Positions 32,039 through 39,812 of a stretch of DNA of 49,765 nucleotides are shown in pieces. How positions within the stretch are numbered: the stretch's first letter is position 1; every line of letters begins with the position of its first letter. The translations under genes were made by a program, and so were the position numbers. The notes below the pieces were generated by a model. That model saw nothing but the letters and a program-made list of their open reading frames with translations, was not told where the DNA came from and ran no database searches. The stretch spans positions 89,814 through 139,578 of the forward strand of contig SWDH01000027.1 in the NCBI GenBank assembly GCA_005116945.1, in the 5' to 3' direction. This stretch comes from Nitrospira sp. (GTDB lineage Bacteria > Nitrospirota > Nitrospiria > Nitrospirales > Nitrospiraceae).

Positions 32039-33043
32039 TCAACCGTAAAAGCCAAACAAATTGACCTTGCGGTAGGCACTGTTCATCGTCTCCACATCAT
32101 GCTGGAACCAACTCGTCAGCCAGTCCTGATATGCCGCGGCACAATCCTGCGCATCTGCACCGTCGCAAAGGTGGCGAACGGCAAGATGGGCCGCCATCAT
32201 TCCCGACATGATGGCGCGCAAAACACCATGCGATGAGGACGGATCCAGCACCGCCGCAGAATCACCTGCCAGGAAATAGCCTGGCCCAGCCAAGGATTTC
32301 GCTATACGCCATGTAACATCTGCACCCCGCGAAGGTTCGCCTTCGAATCCTCGAAGGCCTTGTGGACGCCACGCTGAGTCAGGCCGGTTCTGCGCTTCGG
32401 TCACGCGAGTCCACTGAAAACAATTCGGGGCTACTTCGGCTATCCAGGTCCATCCATATTGGTCTGCACAAATAGACGGGGTTGGGCCGTCGAAACGGCC
32501 ACTGACATATCCAAAACGCGCAACCAGTTGAGGAGAATACCAGACTATCGGAATATGAAGCTGCCGTGCGAGTGTATGAGCGCCACCGCTGCAATCGATC
32601 ACATAGGTGGCCCGGACAGGTCCGTCGGAAGTCATCACGCCGGCAACCTCATGGGACGCGTTGAGCAACACCCCTGACACTTTGCCTGCCAGAATCTGTG
32701 CCCCACGCGAACGCGCACTGCCGAGTAATCGCTGGTCGAAATCTGCACGTATCGCCTGATAGCCTCGCCATGGCCCATTCGTATCCGTGCCATACGGCAC
32801 GAATTGCATTGCGCCACCCCACCCAGACCATACGCCCAAGTGCCTCACATATCCGGCTGACTGTAGCTGGTGTGCAACACCCAGTCTGGTTAATAGGGGC
32901 TCAACACCAGGATGCAATGTTTCGCCAGGACGAAACCGTGGGAACGGCTTCTGTTCAACGATCGTGACCGGGATCTGCGCATCCAGGAGCATGAGTGCAG
33001 CGGCAGCCCCTGATGGGCCGCCGCCTATGATCACAACCTGCAT
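32039..33043 (-). CDS. LodB-like FAD-dependent oxidoreductase (halogenase superfamily)
   Basis: 334 aa starting at the ATG that shares its A with the upstream stop (TGATG), which indicates strict translational coupling. FAD-binding motif G7-x-G9-x2-G12 at the N-terminus, then FRPGETLHPG (36-45), GWTW at 197-200 (echo of the WxWxIP box of flavin halogenases), and AGDSAAVLDPSSSHG (259-273). The GETLxP and GDS...D-P/L-x-S-x-G motifs are shared by LodB/QhpG-type flavoproteins, which help form the tryptophylquinone cofactor of a partner protein. The partner is probably the 750-aa protein directly upstream. A true tryptophan-halogenase role is the alternative. Confidence 0.82.
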   Translation of the reverse strand: MQVVIIGGGPSGAAAALMLLDAQIPVTIVEQKPFPRFRPGETLHPGVEPLLTRLGVAHQLQSAGYVRHLGVWSGWGGAMQFVPYGTDTNGPWRGYQAIRADFDQRLLGSARSRGAQILAGKVSGVLLNASHEVAGVMTSDGPVRATYVIDCSGGAHTLARQLHIPIVWYSPQLVARFGYVSGRFDGPTPSICADQYGWTWIAEVAPNCFQWTRVTEAQNRPDSAWRPQGLRGFEGEPSRGADVTWRIAKSLAGPGYFLAGDSAAVLDPSSSHGVLRAIMSGMMAAHLAVRHLCDGADAQDCAAAYQDWLTSWFQHDVETMNSAYRKVNLFGFYG

Positions 33044-35295
33044 CACACACGCGACCATACGGTTTGATTCGCCCGTTTGCGAAGTGCCGTGTCCGTTCGT
33101 GGACCGACTAAAAAGACCTGTCGATCTTGAATCGGGAGGAGGCTGCGTCGGAAATCGGTGGGATGGGGCTGCTCAGTGGCCTCCCCTCCAAAAATCGTGT
33201 CGATTCGATAGACCTCACCAGATAATACGGTCGAGCTATCCAATTGTGCACGCTGCAATTCTGGATCCCCCGCACTGACCTTACGGAACGAGACCACGAA
33301 GCGTACGTTACGGTCGCCGCCCACCGTGCTGTAACATTTCGCGATGGCCTGCATCCGTAGTCTGTATTCCTCACTTGATACCTGCGTGGTCAATCGCGGA
33401 GTGAAGCGACCTTCCAAGGCATTCTTGACGTAATCGACATGCAGAAACTTCTCACAATCAAGGAACTCCACACCACCGAACGTGCTCACCTTGGGCCCTA
33501 CCACGCCATCCCACGGAAGTGAGCCCACTTGCCCAATTTCCTCGTCTGTGAGAGGGGACACTGTGGCCCGCAAACCTCTGTTTCCCGTATTCGGCGACAT
33601 GGCTCTGGACGCATCCGGCGCTACGGCAGGCCAGAATGTGCTGAGCGCGGCGCATAACTTGGCATCTTCCGGGAATGGACTCCCCAACCCATAGGCCGCT
33701 AAGTGTTGGACTTGTGCGCCAGGCCCCGGTGTGCGGTCGGTGCTGACATCCCAACCCGGAGCGAAAACCCCGGCACAGTCGTCGGGCAAGCAGGAATGAC
33801 GATCGGCATCAAATGACTGGGGAATCGTGACTCCGGTCGGTGCTGGCCCTAACATTGGAACGACAGCGGAGATGGTCTTTTCCCCAGCGCTAAACCGAAT
33901 TTTGATTTCCGGCATCTGGAGATTCGCGGGAAGCCGCGTGTCGCAGAGTGGTACCGGCGGCACACCCCAAAAGTCGCCAGGAACGCTTTCAAACAATTCC
34001 CGCTGGCCAGCTGAGGTGAAGAAATCAGGCGCCCCGACCAGCGAATAACTGGGAATCACCGTCGGAGCAACTTCCGGTTTCCCGACCAGCGCGGGCACTG
34101 TCGCACTAATCTGGCCGTCTCCCGTGAAGTCGACATAGTGGAGTGCTCGATAATTCCCTCTCGAAACAATGTCGTTCACATCAGGCCTGGCAGGATCATT
34201 ATTCAGATCGATTAACACACCGTTCCGCACCTGCGTTCGGGCATGGACATACGCCGGGGCAGGACGGATTTCTGATCCATTTACTCCTTCATCTTCATCA
34301 GGACCAGGCTCCAGAGCAGCAAAAACTTTCTCTCCAGGCGGAACTCTGTAGGTCAACAACCGTCCATTGACCATCGCGGGCTCTACAAGCCTGGGGTGTG
34401 GCACCGGTATCACAATACCCATCCCCAACGAGGGATCAGTAGACAGTTCCGCAATTCCCGTTGAAAATCGAAACGGCGAAGTGATGGGGACGTTCCTCAT
34501 TCGTAAAGTGCGGGCACGGGTCCGTTGAATCTTGTCGTTATAATGGAAAGTGGACAGCTCGACCTGTAGATTCAGGCCAGTAATACACTCCGTTCCGTTG
34601 AAGAGTTTATGAACCGGAACCCAGAAATCACGAGTGGTATCGCCAGGCCTCGCGCGCATGACTGCGATGTCGCTGCCTTTCTTTTGCACGGCAAGAAAGG
34701 CAGCAAACCGTGCCGGACACACGCGAAAGGCAAAGGGGTCATCGGCAACCTGTGCCTGAAACCCGCGAACTTGTGCATCATATCTAGCAGGCCTTGTGCC
34801 CACGCGTGAAACACCGGTTCGAGAAAACACCATGTCGGCTTGGCGGCGAGTACAGGTATCACGCGCTGGTCGATACTCATACGCAAACAACACTATCGAC
34901 AGGCGTTGTGAACCGGGCAGCCCAGCCTTGGTTTTCAAACTCCCAAGTGTCGGCGGCTGAACGCCAAACACATAATTTTCTACCGTCTCTATTTCTTTAA
35001 GCGTTGGAAACCCGCTGAGACCTGTCGTCACATTGGGAGAGGCCATCGCGTGGTACAGCAGACTATCAGCCGGCGATCCTGCTGTAATCGCTTTAGCCCC
35101 GGAGAGAGAAAAATCGGTAAATCCGGTCACGGTGCGATCAATAGCGGTGAGCGTTTTCGTCAGTTCTGCCTTTAGCGCCGCACTCGTTGGCTTAAGAATA
35201 TCGAGTTGCCCTCCAGTCACGTTCAGCAGCAAGTCACGCCAGCCCGAGGGGGCCAGCCGATCGCAGACGGCTTTCACATCGTCAATCAGTGCCAT
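33043..35295 (-). CDS. Candidate LodA-like cysteine-tryptophylquinone oxidase
   Basis: 750 aa, the length range of LodA/GoxA amino-acid oxidases. No signal peptide, which is also true of LodA. The segment C507-A-G-V-F-A-P-G-W-D-V-S resembles the LodA-family cysteine block (C-x-G-x-F-x-PG-[IW]-[DE]-V). W595 in GSLPWDG could be the quinone-forming tryptophan. Both would be joined in the mature cofactor. Strong AAAGGG ribosome site before the ATG. The overlapping LodB-like gene supports the assignment. If correct, it oxidises an amine or amino acid to an aldehyde or oxo-acid, NH3 and H2O2. The similarity is distant and the substrate is unknown. Confidence 0.55.
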   Translation of the reverse strand: MALIDDVKAVCDRLAPSGWRDLLLNVTGGQLDILKPTSAALKAELTKTLTAIDRTVTGFTDFSLSGAKAITAGSPADSLLYHAMASPNVTTGLSGFPTLKEIETVENYVFGVQPPTLGSLKTKAGLPGSQRLSIVLFAYEYRPARDTCTRRQADMVFSRTGVSRVGTRPARYDAQVRGFQAQVADDPFAFRVCPARFAAFLAVQKKGSDIAVMRARPGDTTRDFWVPVHKLFNGTECITGLNLQVELSTFHYNDKIQRTRARTLRMRNVPITSPFRFSTGIAELSTDPSLGMGIVIPVPHPRLVEPAMVNGRLLTYRVPPGEKVFAALEPGPDEDEGVNGSEIRPAPAYVHARTQVRNGVLIDLNNDPARPDVNDIVSRGNYRALHYVDFTGDGQISATVPALVGKPEVAPTVIPSYSLVGAPDFFTSAGQRELFESVPGDFWGVPPVPLCDTRLPANLQMPEIKIRFSAGEKTISAVVPMLGPAPTGVTIPQSFDADRHSCLPDDCAGVFAPGWDVSTDRTPGPGAQVQHLAAYGLGSPFPEDAKLCAALSTFWPAVAPDASRAMSPNTGNRGLRATVSPLTDEEIGQVGSLPWDGVVGPKVSTFGGVEFLDCEKFLHVDYVKNALEGRFTPRLTTQVSSEEYRLRMQAIAKCYSTVGGDRNVRFVVSFRKVSAGDPELQRAQLDSSTVLSGEVYRIDTIFGGEATEQPHPTDFRRSLLPIQDRQVFLVGPRTDTALRKRANQTVWSRV

Positions 35296-35388
35296 ATGGA
35301 AACCCTTTCACAGTGAATCCAGCGCATGAAGCGCGGCGGCGTTTTAGCTCGCCGCGCTTCGATGCACCGATAGAGAGCGCGAGACAGT

Positions 35389-36462
35389 TTATTCGTAGCA
35401 GGATTTGCTTTCCTCGACATCCTTATCCAATGTGTTGATGCTCACATGTGGCCATCGTATCAGGCCTGGGCAGCAGCCAGGAGGCAATCCATCCCTGCGC
35501 GGGAAGAAATCCAACATGACCAGCTGCAAGTATTGCAGACGGAGCTTCGGATCCCCGTACTTATCTTTCTCCGCCAATTCTTGAATCCAGAATATGGATT
35601 TCATGAAAGCAGCATTGGCCTTGCGCACAACAAAAGGAATATTGGAAATGCCACCCGTCGGAATTGTGCTGTCGACCGAGAGCACTGTAGTCTTGACAAC
35701 ATTCACACCCTGGTTGGCAAGCTCAAGCAGTACATGCGTCGCCGTCGGATCAAATCCAGGGAAACCTGGAGCGGTGACAGTTCCCTTGAATGGATTGGCG
35801 TGAAACTGTTGATACGGGCTTAAGTAGCGGTTAGTGAGAATGTCTTTGCCGTTTTTATCTAAAACGATTTTGCCGTCTTTATCTCTTTCTTTATCTTGAG
35901 AGACCCCCTCCGGCAAGCTATTGATATGGGGAATACATGATGCACCAGCGTGTTCGCTGCTCTGCCCTAAGGCCAGCACCGAATCACCGTGTGGAATCGT
36001 CGCGAGCCGCGCAATATCCAAGCCATCGGTGATCTCATCCTTCATATGAAGCCACAAACCCGGCTCATGATGAATGGGGAGCCCGGCAGGACCAGCCAGC
36101 CCACTGTTGGGAGAATCAGCAGCTGCAACTTGCTGGATCGTCTGCTGATAATCCAACGTAACAATAAACTGATCAGTTTCTGCGGTTGGGGTGCGATCCT
36201 TGTCGACGCCGCGGTTCGGCACATTATTATCCACCAGCCTGAACTCGAGCTGTTCGTTGTATTGGTTCAACAGCAATCGGTAATCGAGAGGACTCGGCGC
36301 GGTCGAAAACGGCAGCGCGATCATGTTCCATCCGCGCCCCTCGCTTTTCCACACACCAGGAAGTAACTTGAGTGGACCAAGAATCGGATCGATCTTTTTG
36401 GGCTTGCCATACTTTCGTGCAGGGTATTTCTTTTTTTCCGGAGCTCGGTCTTGTTCCGCCAT
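35389..36462 (-). CDS. Heme-binding beta-barrel protein (nitrobindin/THAP4-like)
   Basis: 357 aa from an ATG at 36460-36462 with AAGGAGAT 7-8 bases upstream. After a basic leader (KKKYPARKYGKPKK) comes the family opening DPILGPLKLLPGVWKSEGRGWNMI-type segment, then strands such as HHEPGLWLHM, IARLATIPHGDSVLALG and NIPFVVRKANAAFMKSIFWIQEL, closing with WPHVSINTL. This pattern matches bacterial proteins annotated as heme-binding FABP/nitrobindin-like barrels. The HHEPGLW and IPHGDS histidines are candidate heme ligands. A Lys/Asp-rich insertion (DKERDKDGKIVLDKNGKD) interrupts it. First gene of the LodA/LodB-like operon. Confidence 0.65.
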   Translation of the reverse strand: MAEQDRAPEKKKYPARKYGKPKKIDPILGPLKLLPGVWKSEGRGWNMIALPFSTAPSPLDYRLLLNQYNEQLEFRLVDNNVPNRGVDKDRTPTAETDQFIVTLDYQQTIQQVAAADSPNSGLAGPAGLPIHHEPGLWLHMKDEITDGLDIARLATIPHGDSVLALGQSSEHAGASCIPHINSLPEGVSQDKERDKDGKIVLDKNGKDILTNRYLSPYQQFHANPFKGTVTAPGFPGFDPTATHVLLELANQGVNVVKTTVLSVDSTIPTGGISNIPFVVRKANAAFMKSIFWIQELAEKDKYGDPKLRLQYLQLVMLDFFPRRDGLPPGCCPGLIRWPHVSINTLDKDVEESKSCYE

Positions 36463-36671
36463 TGCAATATCTCCTTTTGATATAAGTGAATGAATGTGGC
36501 ACCAACAGATATGCATCTATCCTTACGAGTGAGCATCGTGAACCGCTTGATGAGACAGAAGACAGACTAGTACCTCCTTTCCTTGCTTGAGTCAGTTCGC
36601 GTGGACCGCATCTGAGTCAGGCAGGAGTCGTTCACTGCCAGGCTCTCTTCTGTGATTCTGCGTATGTCAAC

Positions 36672-36687
36672 AGCAAGCTCGATGCCA
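36672..36687 (-). promoter_or_regulatory. Sigma-54 (-24/-12) promoter, heme-binding/oxidase operon
   Basis: Minus strand reads TGGCATCGAGCTTGCT: GG and GC are exactly 10 bases apart as required by RpoN. The predicted transcript would start near 36661, giving a leader of about 200 bases before the ATG at 36462. The same element is conserved in the second copy despite surrounding divergence. Confidence 0.7.
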
Positions 36688-36931
36688 GCATGGGAGCAGG
36701 AGTGTCGAATCATCGGATCACATCCACAATCTCTTTCCTTTCAGCGTTGTACGTATTGCTGAGTAAGAACACACCTGTTACGAGATTTTCCTGATCGCAG
36801 ACGCCTGTATCAAAAGAGATTCATGAGGTGAATCAAATCCGATTCAGCAGACTCGGAAGTTTGTGGCTTGGCGATAGAGAGATGAATGGGGATGACAGGC
36901 GTACATTCACGCAAGCACGTGTCGTCGCTCG

Positions 36932-36957
36932 CGGAACTAGGGAGCCCCCTAGTTCCG
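36932..36957. promoter_or_regulatory. Perfect 26-bp palindrome, copy 1
   Basis: CGGAACTAGGG and CCCTAGTTCCG flank a 4-base loop. About 283 bases upstream of the predicted sigma-54 start site, a position suited to an enhancer-binding activator site. It also fits the CT-N12-AG spacing of LuxR-type boxes, which may be chance. Confidence 0.7.
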
Positions 36958-37079
36958 ATCGAATACAGTGCTGGTGTTTTGAAGTTTAGGCAGGACGGTT
37001 AGGAAGGCAAGAGGCCTTGCGGACTCTGATGTGACGGTGACATGTCTGCCCGTCAATCTGCACACCAGAAACGAAACGA

Positions 37080-37225
37080 TTATTTCAATTCTTTCTTTTT
37101 CTCCTGACCAAACAGCTCGTCGCGAAATCGTGCGGTCGCCAGGCGAGACAGGCGTCCATTACCACGCAAGATGACGCGATAGAGAGCAGCAGGGGATTCA
37201 ATGCGGAGCAGAGCGGACAAGCCAT
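37080..37225 (-). pseudogene. Decayed REP-associated (Y1) transposase remnant
   Basis: From ATG 37225 the frame starts MACPL; a 5-base insertion shifts frame, after which RIESPAALYRVILRGNGR matches the RIExPGALYHVxxRGN start of Y1/REP-associated tyrosine transposases. The frame then runs through RLATARFRDELFGQEKKKELK to TAA at 37080. The catalytic HUH and tyrosine regions are missing, so this is an internal-deletion relic. Confidence 0.55.
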
Positions 37226-37279
37226 GGAGGCGTTCCACCAAAGCTATATCATATTAGAAGATCTGACCCCTATTACGCA

Positions 37280-37310
37280 GCAGCCAGACGGCATAGCCGT
37301 CTGGCTGCTC
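37280..37310. repeat. REP-like perfect hairpin / terminator
   Basis: AGCAGCCAGACGGC and GCCGTCTGGCTGCT form a 14-bp perfect stem with a 3-base loop. It lies 11 bases after the haloperoxidase stop and beside the Y1-transposase remnant, with GGGGTCAGATCT-type sequence between. It could be the REP unit of that element now serving as a terminator; no T-run follows. Confidence 0.7.
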
Positions 37311-37320
37311 CATGTCTTGC

Positions 37321-38784
37321 TTATGGCAGTGGTAGTACTGTGGATTTTTTAGGTGCTTTGCCCATGCCTGCCATAAAGATATCTTCGGCGATTTTGAGCC
37401 CAAGCGGTACCCCGCCGATGTTCTGTTTCACATCGGGCTTACCGTTGGGTTTCAACGCGAACGCGTCGAAGAACCAATGGACACCGAGGTACACACGACT
37501 AAAGCCGTTCTCTTCAATCATTTGCCACAAACCATCGTCGAACTTACGCAAATGTCGCGGGCGCACGTTCCCCTGGTTATCTTGCGTCACACCGTTCATT
37601 TCGTCGGAAACGAACGGTCCTTTATAGACGTCATCTTTTTTACAATCCCCCTTTGGCACCCCGTAGAACAAACGCACCATGTGTAGCGCCGCAGCGCCGA
37701 AGGTTGCGTGGCCTGACGGATACGCGGGAAACGGCGGTGTGAAGTTTTTATCGAAGCGGCCCGTCGCAGGCACATAACTATTGCTATGCGGTGCCCCGAA
37801 CGGCAACCACTCCGGATCACAATCGTTATCGATATTGTCCTTGGCCATCGGTGCCGCAGGGCCCATCGATGGATCATGCTCCCGAATACCGACCACCGGT
37901 CGCCACACATCGTGGATGTATTTTTCTCTCCACGCCAAGATGCCGGCGTCGCCCAACGCTGCATTCACCAACGCAAACAAACGTGCGTTTTGATCGACAT
38001 TGTTGCCCTTGGCCATTGCTACTTCGCGGACAATTTGATTGTACAGGCGCGGCGGCGTACCGAGTTCGCGCGGGCCATCGTAGGCCCAATAGAGTCCGAC
38101 CGCAGTTTCATCCACGGTGCGCTTGCTGTACGTAGCAGGCAACGTCCCCATCAGTTCCGGCGCAATACCCTTGCCACGCACTTGATCAAGTGCGCTCTCG
38201 TACGCTGGACTGCCAATAGTCGGTGGCGCATTGAGTCCAAAGAGCGCCGTGGCGGCGAACAGTTTCGAGTTCTTGCCGTAGAAAGGAGCGTGATAGCCTT
38301 GCCCAGGATTGGCGGGATCGGGCCGGTGACCGCCCGGATGCATCGAGGCGGCATAACCGTTGTCGCTGGGACTGGGATCTGATGCACGGTCAGCCAGCAT
38401 TGCCGCAGCCACTGCCAGCCCGAAAGCGTGCCCTTGAGCAAGGCCGGCACCGCTCAGACCTGCTGCCTGATGAGCCAAATCGAAGTGCGGTTTCTGTCGC
38501 GGGTAGAGTGCGCTCAAGCATGCGTGCGCGGCAGCAGCCACAGCCGCAGCAGCACTGGCCCCAGCCCCAGGACCGGGAGGCAACGACAAGTAGCGAGGCA
38601 AGCTCGCCCCGCCAACTACGCCCGCATGCGCGTCGTACATGGCCAAGTGTACGATCGCCATCGCGCGCGAGCTAAGCGTTGGCCCGCCCTGTTCGGGGCT
38701 CGGTTTGTCGGTGCCGGGGACATTGCTAAAGTCTCGTCGGTTCGCCTCTAATGCCACACCGTTCCAATACAGTATGTGATCCAC
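37321..38784 (-). CDS. Vanadium-dependent haloperoxidase
   Basis: 487 aa, PAP2/haloperoxidase fold. All vanadate-pocket residues known from vanadium chloroperoxidase are present with matching spacing: K288-x6-R295 (EKYIHDVWRP), S357-G358-H359 in FPAYPSGHATF, and R430-x5-H436 (SRVYLGVHWF), H436 being the vanadate ligand. The enzyme uses H2O2 to oxidise halide to hypohalous acid. No signal peptide is evident. Starts with GTG and AGGAG about 9 bases upstream. Monocistronic, with its own sigma-54-type promoter region. Confidence 0.92.
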   Translation of the reverse strand: MDHILYWNGVALEANRRDFSNVPGTDKPSPEQGGPTLSSRAMAIVHLAMYDAHAGVVGGASLPRYLSLPPGPGAGASAAAAVAAAAHACLSALYPRQKPHFDLAHQAAGLSGAGLAQGHAFGLAVAAAMLADRASDPSPSDNGYAASMHPGGHRPDPANPGQGYHAPFYGKNSKLFAATALFGLNAPPTIGSPAYESALDQVRGKGIAPELMGTLPATYSKRTVDETAVGLYWAYDGPRELGTPPRLYNQIVREVAMAKGNNVDQNARLFALVNAALGDAGILAWREKYIHDVWRPVVGIREHDPSMGPAAPMAKDNIDNDCDPEWLPFGAPHSNSYVPATGRFDKNFTPPFPAYPSGHATFGAAALHMVRLFYGVPKGDCKKDDVYKGPFVSDEMNGVTQDNQGNVRPRHLRKFDDGLWQMIEENGFSRVYLGVHWFFDAFALKPNGKPDVKQNIGGVPLGLKIAEDIFMAGMGKAPKKSTVLPLP

Positions 38785-38891: not shown

Positions 38892-38907
38892 AGCAAGCGA
38901 GATGCCA
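38892..38907 (-). promoter_or_regulatory. Sigma-54 (-24/-12) promoter, haloperoxidase gene
   Basis: Minus strand reads TGGCATCTCGCTTGCT, with GG-N10-GC spacing. Predicted start near 38881, leader about 97 bases. The four central bases differ from copy 1 while the consensus positions are kept, which supports function. Confidence 0.7.
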
Positions 38908-39150
38908 GCACGGGAGCAGACACATCAAGTCACTTAATGCACCCTTAATCTCAAGACTTTCAGCGCTATACGTATTGCTGCGTAACAATACACGTGTCCC
39001 GCACATCTCCCGAGCACAGACGCCTGTATCGAAAGAGATTCATGAGGTGAATCAAATCCGATTCAGCAGACTCGGAAGTTTGTGGCTTGGCGATAGAGAG
39101 ATGAATGGGGATGACAGGCGTACATTCACGCAAGCACGTGTCGTCGCTCG

Positions 39151-39176
39151 CGGAACTAGGGAGCCCCCTAGTTCCG
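39151..39176. promoter_or_regulatory. Perfect 26-bp palindrome, copy 2
   Basis: Identical to 36932-36957 and at the same distance, about 282 bases, from its predicted sigma-54 start site. Confidence 0.7.
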
Positions 39177-39345
39177 ATCGAGTACAGTGCCGGTATTTAC
39201 AAATTTAGGCAGGACAATACGGTGGCTAGGAGTATTAGGGAAGATGATGCAAAGACGGCAGCAGACCAGCACAGGCAGGTGAATTTGTCGGGAATGCTCG
39301 TGAGTAAGACGAGTTGGACACTCCCCCCATGCATTGAACGATTCA

Positions 39346-39353: not shown

Positions 39354-39812
39354 TTAGAGGCCACCACTCTTCGTGGCACAGACGAGGCTCAGCTGACGCT
39401 CACGCTCTGCGACGGCCAGACGCTTGGCCTGGCGTTCGCCATAGTAAGAAACCGCGAACTTCCGCTTACGACCGTCGCCTTGCTCGTTGATCCAGGAGGC
39501 CAGCCAAAAGACACGAACGGAGCCCGTCTTTGGATTGTCCAATTGTTCGTATCTGCCGACGCCAGGATTGCCTGATGTATTGTTCCGACGCAGGCGCGTA
39601 CGGACCCAGATGGCATGGGCGTAGGGCGAATATCGGCGAAGCAGTTCGTCTCGATAGGCCTCAGCCGCCTTCAAGGCCTTGCGCTTCCCGCCATAGATGG
39701 CATCGGAGAACGTCTTCACGGCGATGTCGTTATGCCGTTGCACCGTGACCCGCCACGCATGGGTTCGGCTTGCCTCGTGGTCAACGCGGACGATGTTGCG
39801 GGAAGAATTCAT
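39354..39812 (-). CDS. AP2/ERF-like DNA-binding domain protein
   Basis: 152 aa. The C-terminal half has the AP2 pattern: NNTSGNPGVGRYEQ, then VFWLASWINEQGDGRKRKFAVSYYGERQAKRLAV. The N-terminal half (HAWRVTVQRHNDIAVKTFSD, KALKAAEAYRDELL) looks like a second, weaker AP2 unit. In bacteria such domains occur in mobile elements and homing-endonuclease relatives. No nuclease domain remains here. It lies in the integron-like cassette cluster, followed by an attC-type core site. Confidence 0.75.
   Translation of the reverse strand: MNSSRNIVRVDHEASRTHAWRVTVQRHNDIAVKTFSDAIYGGKRKALKAAEAYRDELLRRYSPYAHAIWVRTRLRRNNTSGNPGVGRYEQLDNPKTGSVRVFWLASWINEQGDGRKRKFAVSYYGERQAKRLAVAERERQLSLVCATKSGGL

Follow-up and report, generated by a model that had tools for sequence, protein, structure and literature searches.

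This report describes a cluster of four genes in a 49.8-kb stretch of DNA from Nitrospira sp. (49,765 nucleotides of contig SWDH01000027.1, hereafter the window), part of a draft genome of 3.39 Mb that is 82% complete. All four open reading frames (ORFs) are on the minus strand and, in the order of transcription, encode a vanadium-type haloperoxidase and then, in a second unit, an FMP-type heme-binding protein (FMP), a 750-amino-acid (aa) protein for which the working name QNP will be used, and its flavoprotein, labelled FAD. Because a 13-bp hairpin lies directly 3' of the haloperoxidase stop codon, the haloperoxidase gene and FMP-QNP-FAD look like separate units. A sequence-only reading of this DNA, which preceded our analysis, had placed all four ORFs correctly, except that the flavoprotein ORF, given as ending at 33043, extends slightly further to 33058, its 5' part overlapping the 3' end of the QNP gene (33043-33058). 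The features discussed here are collected in Table 1.

Table 1. Genes and promoter elements of the haloperoxidase and FMP-QNP-FAD units (window coordinates)
Feature	Coordinates	Strand	Evidence
Flavoprotein resembling FAD monooxygenases, 339 aa; predicted to be a tryptophylquinone maturase like QhpG, GoxB and LodB	32039..33058	-	NCBIfam, PDB, neighbourhood
QNP, 750 aa, LodA-type but divergent; predicted to be a quinoprotein oxidase; predicted cofactor site Asp544, Cys548, Trp555	33043..35295	-	Profile match, motif
Heme-binding protein of the FMP type, 375 aa; heads the operon; possible peroxidase-type partner	35389..36516	-	NF040572
Sigma-54 -24/-12 element TGGCATCGAGCTTGCT, FMP-QNP-FAD operon	36672..36687	-	Strict match
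276-nt repeat, first copy	36721..36996	-	89% to second copy
Tandem enhancer TGAATCGGATTTGATTCA / TGAATCTCTTTTGATACA, FMP-QNP-FAD operon	36806..36846	-	Palindrome scan
Haloperoxidase, vanadium chloroperoxidase-type, 487 aa, active-site residues kept	37321..38784	-	Pfam and Curvularia alignment
Sigma-54 -24/-12 element TGGCATCTCGCTTGCT, haloperoxidase gene	38892..38907	-	Strict match
276-nt repeat, second copy	38940..39215	-	Alignment to first copy
Tandem enhancer TGAATCGGATTTGATTCA / TGAATCTCTTTCGATACA, haloperoxidase gene	39025..39065	-	Palindrome scan

The two units are preceded by closely related promoter regions. The 276-nt repeat, 89% identical between its copies, is found upstream of both FMP and the haloperoxidase gene, and each copy is followed by a sigma-54 element of the form TGGCAT-N5-TTGCT, that is, GG-N10-GC in a TGGCAY-N5-TTGCW context. 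The window holds two strict matches, both of them here, compared with about 0.1 expected by our own arithmetic for uniform bases. Each sigma-54 site has two palindromes of the form TGWATC-N6-GATWCA, which begin about 136 and 159 nt further upstream, and the only sites in the window scoring at least 11/12 for this palindrome are the four in these two promoters. A further perfect palindrome with 10-bp arms, GGAACTAGGG-GGCT-CCCTAGTTCC, lies apart from the enhancer pair at 36933-36956 and again in the second repeat. A consensus promoter/terminator scan, whose scope does not include sigma-54 elements, stayed at chance level (5 against 4.7 expected, and 7 against 7.1 expected).

The same layout recurs outside the window. 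Thirteen loci from Nitrospira and its relatives, 206 kb in all and picked because they carry FMP, QNP or the haloperoxidase, contain ten near-strict sigma-54 sites, and all ten precede one of these genes: FMP in seven cases, QNP in one (G200) and the haloperoxidase in two (G214, G070). With L009 and L164 counted once, being one and the same place, the sigma-54/enhancer layout is present at nine distinct places besides the window (six FMP loci, G200, G214 and G070); the site of L011 falls at the called start. The enhancer pair accompanies 11/11 sites tested, compared with 260 of 20000 random positions, and at these 11 sites the nearer palindrome ends 109-121 nt before TGGCA. The shared control that had been proposed for the two units is thus real at the level of sequence, with the repeat, the sigma-54 site and the tandem enhancer upstream of both, and the oxidase operon and the haloperoxidase gene appear to share one sigma-54 switch.

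A second link between the units is that they replace each other in one chromosomal slot. In a genus labelled g2, the interval between the DUF3422 gene and uvrA is occupied by FMP-QNP-FAD (G050, L014), by QNP-FAD (G200) or by the haloperoxidase gene (G070), with flanks that align on both sides. In G214, from the genus of the window, the haloperoxidase gene lies between the same AP2-domain gene and the gene that we take to be radA as in the window, without FMP-QNP-FAD. The AP2-domain gene lies at 39354-39812 in the window, where its Pfam match is below cut-off, and at L161:7357-7824 in G214; in the latter genome, a 558-aa ORF without a Pfam match occupies the FMP-QNP-FAD position of the window (L161:10399-12072). 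The similarity of the window operon to that of G050 begins near 36583 and excludes the promoter stretch; this boundary and the alignment of the repeat suggest that the operon's promoter is of the haloperoxidase type, probably copied locally.

The 750-aa protein itself gave no match in Pfam, NCBIfam or PDB sequences in single-sequence searches, nor did a 77-row QNP profile find a match in the PDB, which contains LodA and GoxA. A phage origin was rejected, the best PHROG match having an E of 0.096. As no family was matched directly, assignment to LodA needed profile-profile comparison, for which the LodA-family reference set comprised 15 loci with LodA_C above cut-off, 14 sequences being used. 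With hhalign, the best local score between the QNP and LodA-family profiles was 44.7 (E 3e-4, probability 41%), compared with 18.95 for a reversed profile and 26.7 for the best of 60 column shuffles. This top match joins 'DFTGDGxIxA...YSLVxAPDFFP' of QNP to 'WxDDxSDGPVxA...AWVxxxPPDYAP' of LodA, and two weaker matches, GVARVG (E 0.01) and FWPAxxPD (E 0.38), are colinear with it. A forced alignment of the C-terminal parts sets PGWD on PGIE, PEDAKLC on QADFxxC (WQADFxxC) and FWPA on WWPP, thereby placing Asp544, Cys548 and Trp555 of QNP on the Asp, Cys and Trp of LodA. The cofactor residues of LodA are C516 and W581 (PMC4417212), and PMC7876137 describes an Asp near the LodA-type cofactor; the equivalence of the three QNP residues to this site is suggested by a weak local alignment. 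The LodA-like nature attributed to this protein from its sequence is accordingly upheld by a profile score beyond shuffles and reversal and by the aligned cofactor residues. QNP looks like a divergent LodA-type clade, which lies outside the LodA family as current models define it but has profile-level homology to it.

The three residues are invariant among the aligned members of the clade. Relatives of QNP were retrieved with two patterns, one of which includes the Cys: the search of 84,980 species genomes gave 122 stretches, the best 80 of them being retained, and 4 of the 295 genomes of the phylum (that of the window included) and 3 of 72,556 plasmid records also had relatives. Among the resulting 87 loci are that of the window (L001) and two duplicated places (L003 = L014, L004 = L009). 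The motif D-x3-C-x6-W, in which Asp544 is followed by Cys548 and, seven positions on, by Trp555, is present in all 75 rows of the alignment, made from the window and 74 of the best 80 loci (L011, L014, L016, L025, L028, L034 and the plasmid loci being omitted). It is likewise present in 22/22 loci retrieved without the Cys pattern, in the three plasmid matches and in L119, the only new locus among the pattern-free profile matches (L117 and L118 duplicate L070 and L024, and L120 is a short fragment). The QNP frame is broken at two loci, L007 and L016. Nitrifiers and their relatives are among the hosts (Nitrospira, Nitrosospira, Nitrotoga, Nitrosomonas and Anammoxibacter; L008-L012, L014, L020, L021, L049, L076 and L085), and QNP-FAD is found, with a galactose/glyoxal-oxidase-like gene nearby, on a contig labelled as a Nitrososphaerales archaeon metagenome-assembled genome (L038), which may be either an archaeal case or a binning error.

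The partner of QNP is almost always present. A same-strand relative of the flavoprotein follows QNP in 85 of the 87 loci, and with starts set mechanically, 84 of these 85 genes overlap QNP or begin at most 191 nt away, the exception being L016 with its broken QNP frame; the two loci without a flavoprotein match are L005 and L007, the latter with a related ORF seen by eye. The pairing of a LodB-like flavoprotein with a LodA-like protein, predicted from the window, is thus kept nearly always, and the gene order is that reported for lodA-lodB (PMC4417212). The flavoprotein matches the NCBIfam models QhpG (109 bits, 2e-31), GoxB (90 bits, 1e-25) and LodB (90 bits, 2e-25), all under their curated cut-offs of 240, 400 and 400 bits, respectively, and its PDB matches are flavin halogenases, including CmlS. 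With QhpG as the best named model, direct hydroxylation of the Trp in the manner of QhpG is possible.

The neighbourhoods of QNP were surveyed with home-made profiles over 83 loci and 1.2 Mb, 56 of the 83 having at least 3 kb on both sides. Peroxidase-type heme proteins lie near QNP in 23/83 loci, so that the coupling of the oxidase with such proteins, as had been supposed, is a recurring theme. They comprise 12 FMP, a count that is not independent because the FMP profile was built partly from counted loci, seven PF03098 animal-type (six on the same strand and within 2.3 kb) and four DyP proteins; the match at L036, 6.8 kb off and on the opposite strand, is within the 23 but outside the tree labels. 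Three of these neighbours were checked with Pfam, two PF03098-type (of seven) and one DyP (of four), and all were confirmed; genome-wide Pfam matches coincide by coordinates with further neighbours (L015, L057, L086; L030, L056), while the DyP at L087 was detected solely by the home-made profile. For the FMP neighbours, NCBIfam scores were above cut-off at L052, L063 and L066 and below it at L074 and L084. In 20 QNP-host genomes (127.5 Mb, summed from their listed sizes), several of them picked because a peroxidase had already been seen, Pfam finds 25 PF03098 and 13 DyP stretches, from which about 0.24 and 0.12 genes would be expected in 1.2 Mb, a comparison that sets Pfam rates beside counts from home-made profiles. 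In a FastTree phylogeny of 82 QNP proteins, the peroxidase-type neighbour state changes by gain or loss at least 13 times.

Other neighbours recur as well. Tyrosinase-type genes occur in three loci (L020, L049, L050) and cupredoxin-looking genes, the domain being named by eye, in five (L049, L050, L052, L056, L076); the latter encode proteins of about 370-420 aa adjoining QNP-FAD with a conserved 'HFHGFVTGGRSG'-like part, the L050 copy of which has no Pfam family. A family with an EYCEW motif lies within 5 kb of QNP at L005, L013, L033, L036, L056 and L087, three times with DyP in the locus and once fused to a subtilase. In five Pseudomonas loci (L043-L046, L051), QNP-FAD lies between glyA/sarcosine-oxidase genes and glycine betaine monooxygenase genes, names that were checked on one copy each (L045 and L051). 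As GoxA is a glycine oxidase (PMC4417212), this context hints at glycine or sarcosine as a type of QNP substrate.

Regarding the two peroxidase candidates of the window, FMP passes the NCBIfam model NF040572 heme_bind_FMP (284 bits, cut-off 150), and its match to the Pfam heme barrel is weak (E 0.043); of the heme-binding beta-barrel once assigned to it, heme binding is thus backed by a model match above cut-off and the barrel by a weak one. Among the 295 genomes of the phylum, FMP is above cut-off in 12 and, of the four with QNP, in three, each time directly upstream of QNP; G200 has none. In one Nitrospira, FMP is present twice, the additional copy lying 3.2 kb downstream of the operon (L010:14442-15527). 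The haloperoxidase aligns with the Curvularia vanadium chloroperoxidase at 3e-63 and has a VCPO_N score of 50.8 bits (cut-off 29.3). Lys353, Arg360, Ser402, Gly403, His404, Arg490, His496, Trp350, Asp292 and Phe397 are identical in the alignment, in agreement with the initial claim that the active site is complete; the numbering and the roles of these residues in vanadate binding and catalysis are those we assume for the Curvularia enzyme.

Conservation does not extend to the four-gene set as a whole. None of the 87 QNP loci contains the haloperoxidase (the flanks are 1.5 kb at four loci, and of the remaining 83, 56 have at least 3 kb on both sides), and among the 295 phylum genomes, with the oxidase in four and haloperoxidase relatives in 19 (six weak and partial), the window's genome is the only one with both. 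The haloperoxidase and the oxidase were thus rejected as a conserved module (0/87 loci, 1/295 genomes), and of the co-occurrence looked for in other genomes, it is the oxidase-flavoprotein pair that recurs.

The promoter type extends to other genes of the genome. Strict sigma-54 sites number 22, compared with 7 in a reversed control, and enhancer pairs accompany 8 of the 22, that of L177 at a different distance and that of L194 with a weak half. Behind the enhancer-type promoters are a PrsR-like activator (L196:4102-5535; sigma-54 activator domain, 2e-70) and, after it, FapC/B-, FapD- and FapF-like amyloid genes, a two-partner (TPS) adhesin with its ShlB transporter, a beta-lactamase-family protein, and a defence-like pair of a TIR-domain gene and an nSTAND1-WD40 gene (L198:879-6187), which has a sigma-54 site and two near-perfect enhancer palindromes at -92/-115. 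Control by sigma-54 with PrsR is published or predicted for PEP-CTERM genes (PMC1569441 and PMC9850573), the former paper giving an enhancer motif TTTACA with a spacer of about 63 nt. Since the enhancer found here differs from it, the PrsR-like activator is only a candidate for the regulator of the oxidase and haloperoxidase promoters.

From these observations, all made on sequence, we infer with a probability of roughly 60% that FMP-QNP-FAD encodes a maturase-dependent quinone oxidase that delivers H2O2 to a peroxidase and is placed with the haloperoxidase in a matrix or defence regulon. The flavoprotein would oxygenate Trp555 and help to join it to Cys548, giving cysteine tryptophylquinone (CTQ), although Trp555 is the presumed rather than the certain quinone residue because a second Trp, Trp595, is also invariant. 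Mature QNP would oxidise an amine or amino acid and pass the electrons to O2, with H2O2 and probably ammonia as products. The H2O2 would be consumed by a heme protein, which is FMP here and an animal-type or DyP peroxidase in certain other bacteria, and the haloperoxidase, encoded separately behind the same sigma-54/enhancer layout, would convert H2O2 and halide into hypohalite. Both units would belong to one regulon, driven by an enhancer-binding protein that recognises pairs of TGWATC-N6-GATWCA. As the other promoters precede the PrsR-like activator and amyloid-like, adhesin and TIR-STAND genes, the most likely role is cross-linking or defence by peroxide/hypohalite chemistry in the matrix or at the surface of the biofilm. 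A broader proposal is put forward tentatively and at somewhat less than even odds: that QNP belongs to a so far unrecognised class of tryptophylquinone oxidases, spread across phyla and with a very compact Cys-x6-Trp site, that has acquired unrelated heme peroxidases several times as users of H2O2 and that in Nitrospira is interchangeable with the haloperoxidase under one sigma-54 biofilm/defence switch. On this proposal, nitrifiers would equip their matrix with a regulated chemistry leading from peroxide to hypohalite.

Several observations weigh against this picture, and some of them feed the alternatives to it. In 60/83 loci the available flank, in many cases short, has no recognised peroxidase. 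Those concerning the fold are that LodA_C was not found in the window's genome, that the hhalign probability is just 31-41%, that one further local match (E 0.11) is not colinear, that the Cys/Trp segment alone matches weakly (E 0.13) and that the Cys-Trp spacing is 7 in QNP and at least 11 in the 14 LodA-family members compared. Together with the lack of a Pfam, NCBIfam or PDB match, including that of the 77-row profile, the first two of these would suit a 750-aa protein unrelated to LodA, with a coincidental Asp/Cys/Trp motif and a flavoprotein acting on something else; given the shuffle and reversal controls, the aligned cofactor residues and the LodB-like partner in 85/87 loci, we regard this as improbable. 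A less remote, but still rather unlikely, alternative accepts the tryptophylquinone and makes QNP a dehydrogenase, whose electrons would go to the heme protein or a cupredoxin without formation of H2O2, as in quinohemoprotein amine dehydrogenase. The maturase of that enzyme, QhpG, is the best-scoring model for the flavoprotein (109 vs 90 bits), a cupredoxin-looking neighbour is present at five loci, and FMP is called heme-binding yet fails the cut-off of the model 'peroxidase, FMP-type' (NF040571, 74 vs 300 bits). Against the dehydrogenase, the named peroxidase families PF03098 and DyP recur beside QNP, and the profile match of QNP is to the LodA-family oxidases.

The link between the two units can also be doubted. 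The oxidase operon and the haloperoxidase gene may be adjacent by chance, their common promoter reflecting a local duplication and implying no shared pathway. That the haloperoxidase adjoins the oxidase in this genome alone (0/87 loci; the families together in 1/295 genomes) speaks for this, as does the repeat, which is near-identical over about 165 nt, beyond the enhancers too, and looks like a recent duplication or conversion, and the end of the similarity to the G050 operon near 36583 means that the promoter stretch differs from that of G050. A duplication confined to the window does not account, however, for the same layout on haloperoxidase genes without the oxidase (G214, G070) and on oxidase operons without the haloperoxidase (six FMP loci and G200), nor for the replacement of one by the other in the DUF3422-uvrA slot, and chance adjacency without a shared pathway is thus judged somewhat unlikely. 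On the regulon itself, the haloperoxidase gene of G135 lacks the promoter layout, L013 and L016 have no sigma-54 site in the available flank, and the FapC/B-, FapD- and FapF-like proteins are all below NCBIfam cut-offs; the PrsR-like activator scores 483.3 bits with TIGR02915, first of 74 models but below the cut-off of 502.6, and motif 1 with its spacer of about 63 nt, as given in the available text of PMC1569441, is not found at these promoters. The surface location, moreover, is drawn from the regulon alone.

If the quinone-oxidase reading is correct, a broad uncharacterised clade would join the few known tryptophylquinone enzymes, with a minimal cofactor geometry and a maturase of its own. 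The suggested rule, an oxidase combined with any of several peroxidase types, would predict the function of many hypothetical proteins, and a sigma-54 regulon in a Nitrospira-like bacterium would tie peroxide/hypohalite enzymes to amyloid-like, adhesin and TIR-STAND genes, which bears on the upkeep of biofilms and flocs by nitrifiers in water treatment. In the open-access literature on LodA-like proteins, CTQ, LodB, GoxA, tryptophylquinone and Nitrospira haloperoxidases, no title or beginning of an abstract describes the clade or the module, no paper joins tryptophylquinone with haloperoxidase, and none uses both 'FMP-type' and 'peroxidase'; the main text of a Nitrospirales survey (PMC12342949) has none of the six terms searched for.

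Among known systems, the closest are LodA/LodB (L-lysine epsilon-oxidase) and GoxA/GoxB (glycine oxidase), which likewise have an oxidase gene followed by a flavoprotein gene, with Asp-x3-Cys and Trp in the same order. QNP differs from LodA and GoxA in matching no family model, in the position of GVARVG, about 140 residues more distant from the N terminus, and in the Cys-Trp spacing, 7 compared with 65 in LodA (C516 and W581; PMC4417212). None of the 19 Nitrospirae and 602 Archaea genomes in the 2015 LodA survey had a LodA-like protein (PMC4417212). Tyrosinase-type neighbours are reported for LodA-like operons and resemble those of the three loci found here, and the catalase-type domains fused to some LodA-like proteins are a parallel to the peroxidase neighbours of QNP (both PMC4417212).

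QhpG provides the best-scoring model for the flavoprotein, yet under its cut-off, and its partner is different: QhpC, a small subunit, is cross-linked in other ways, whereas QNP has 750 aa. The haloperoxidase shares its active-site residues, including Phe397, with the Curvularia vanadium chloroperoxidase, but it is bacterial and shorter (487 vs 609 aa), with a shorter middle section and a sigma-54-type promoter. In its control, the system resembles the PrsK/PrsR-RpoN regulon of PEP-CTERM genes, having sigma-54 promoters, distal enhancer repeats, surface/matrix-type genes and a PrsR-like activator that is itself behind such a sigma-54 site; compared with the motif in the available text of PMC1569441, its enhancer has a different sequence and spacing, and its targets include redox enzymes.

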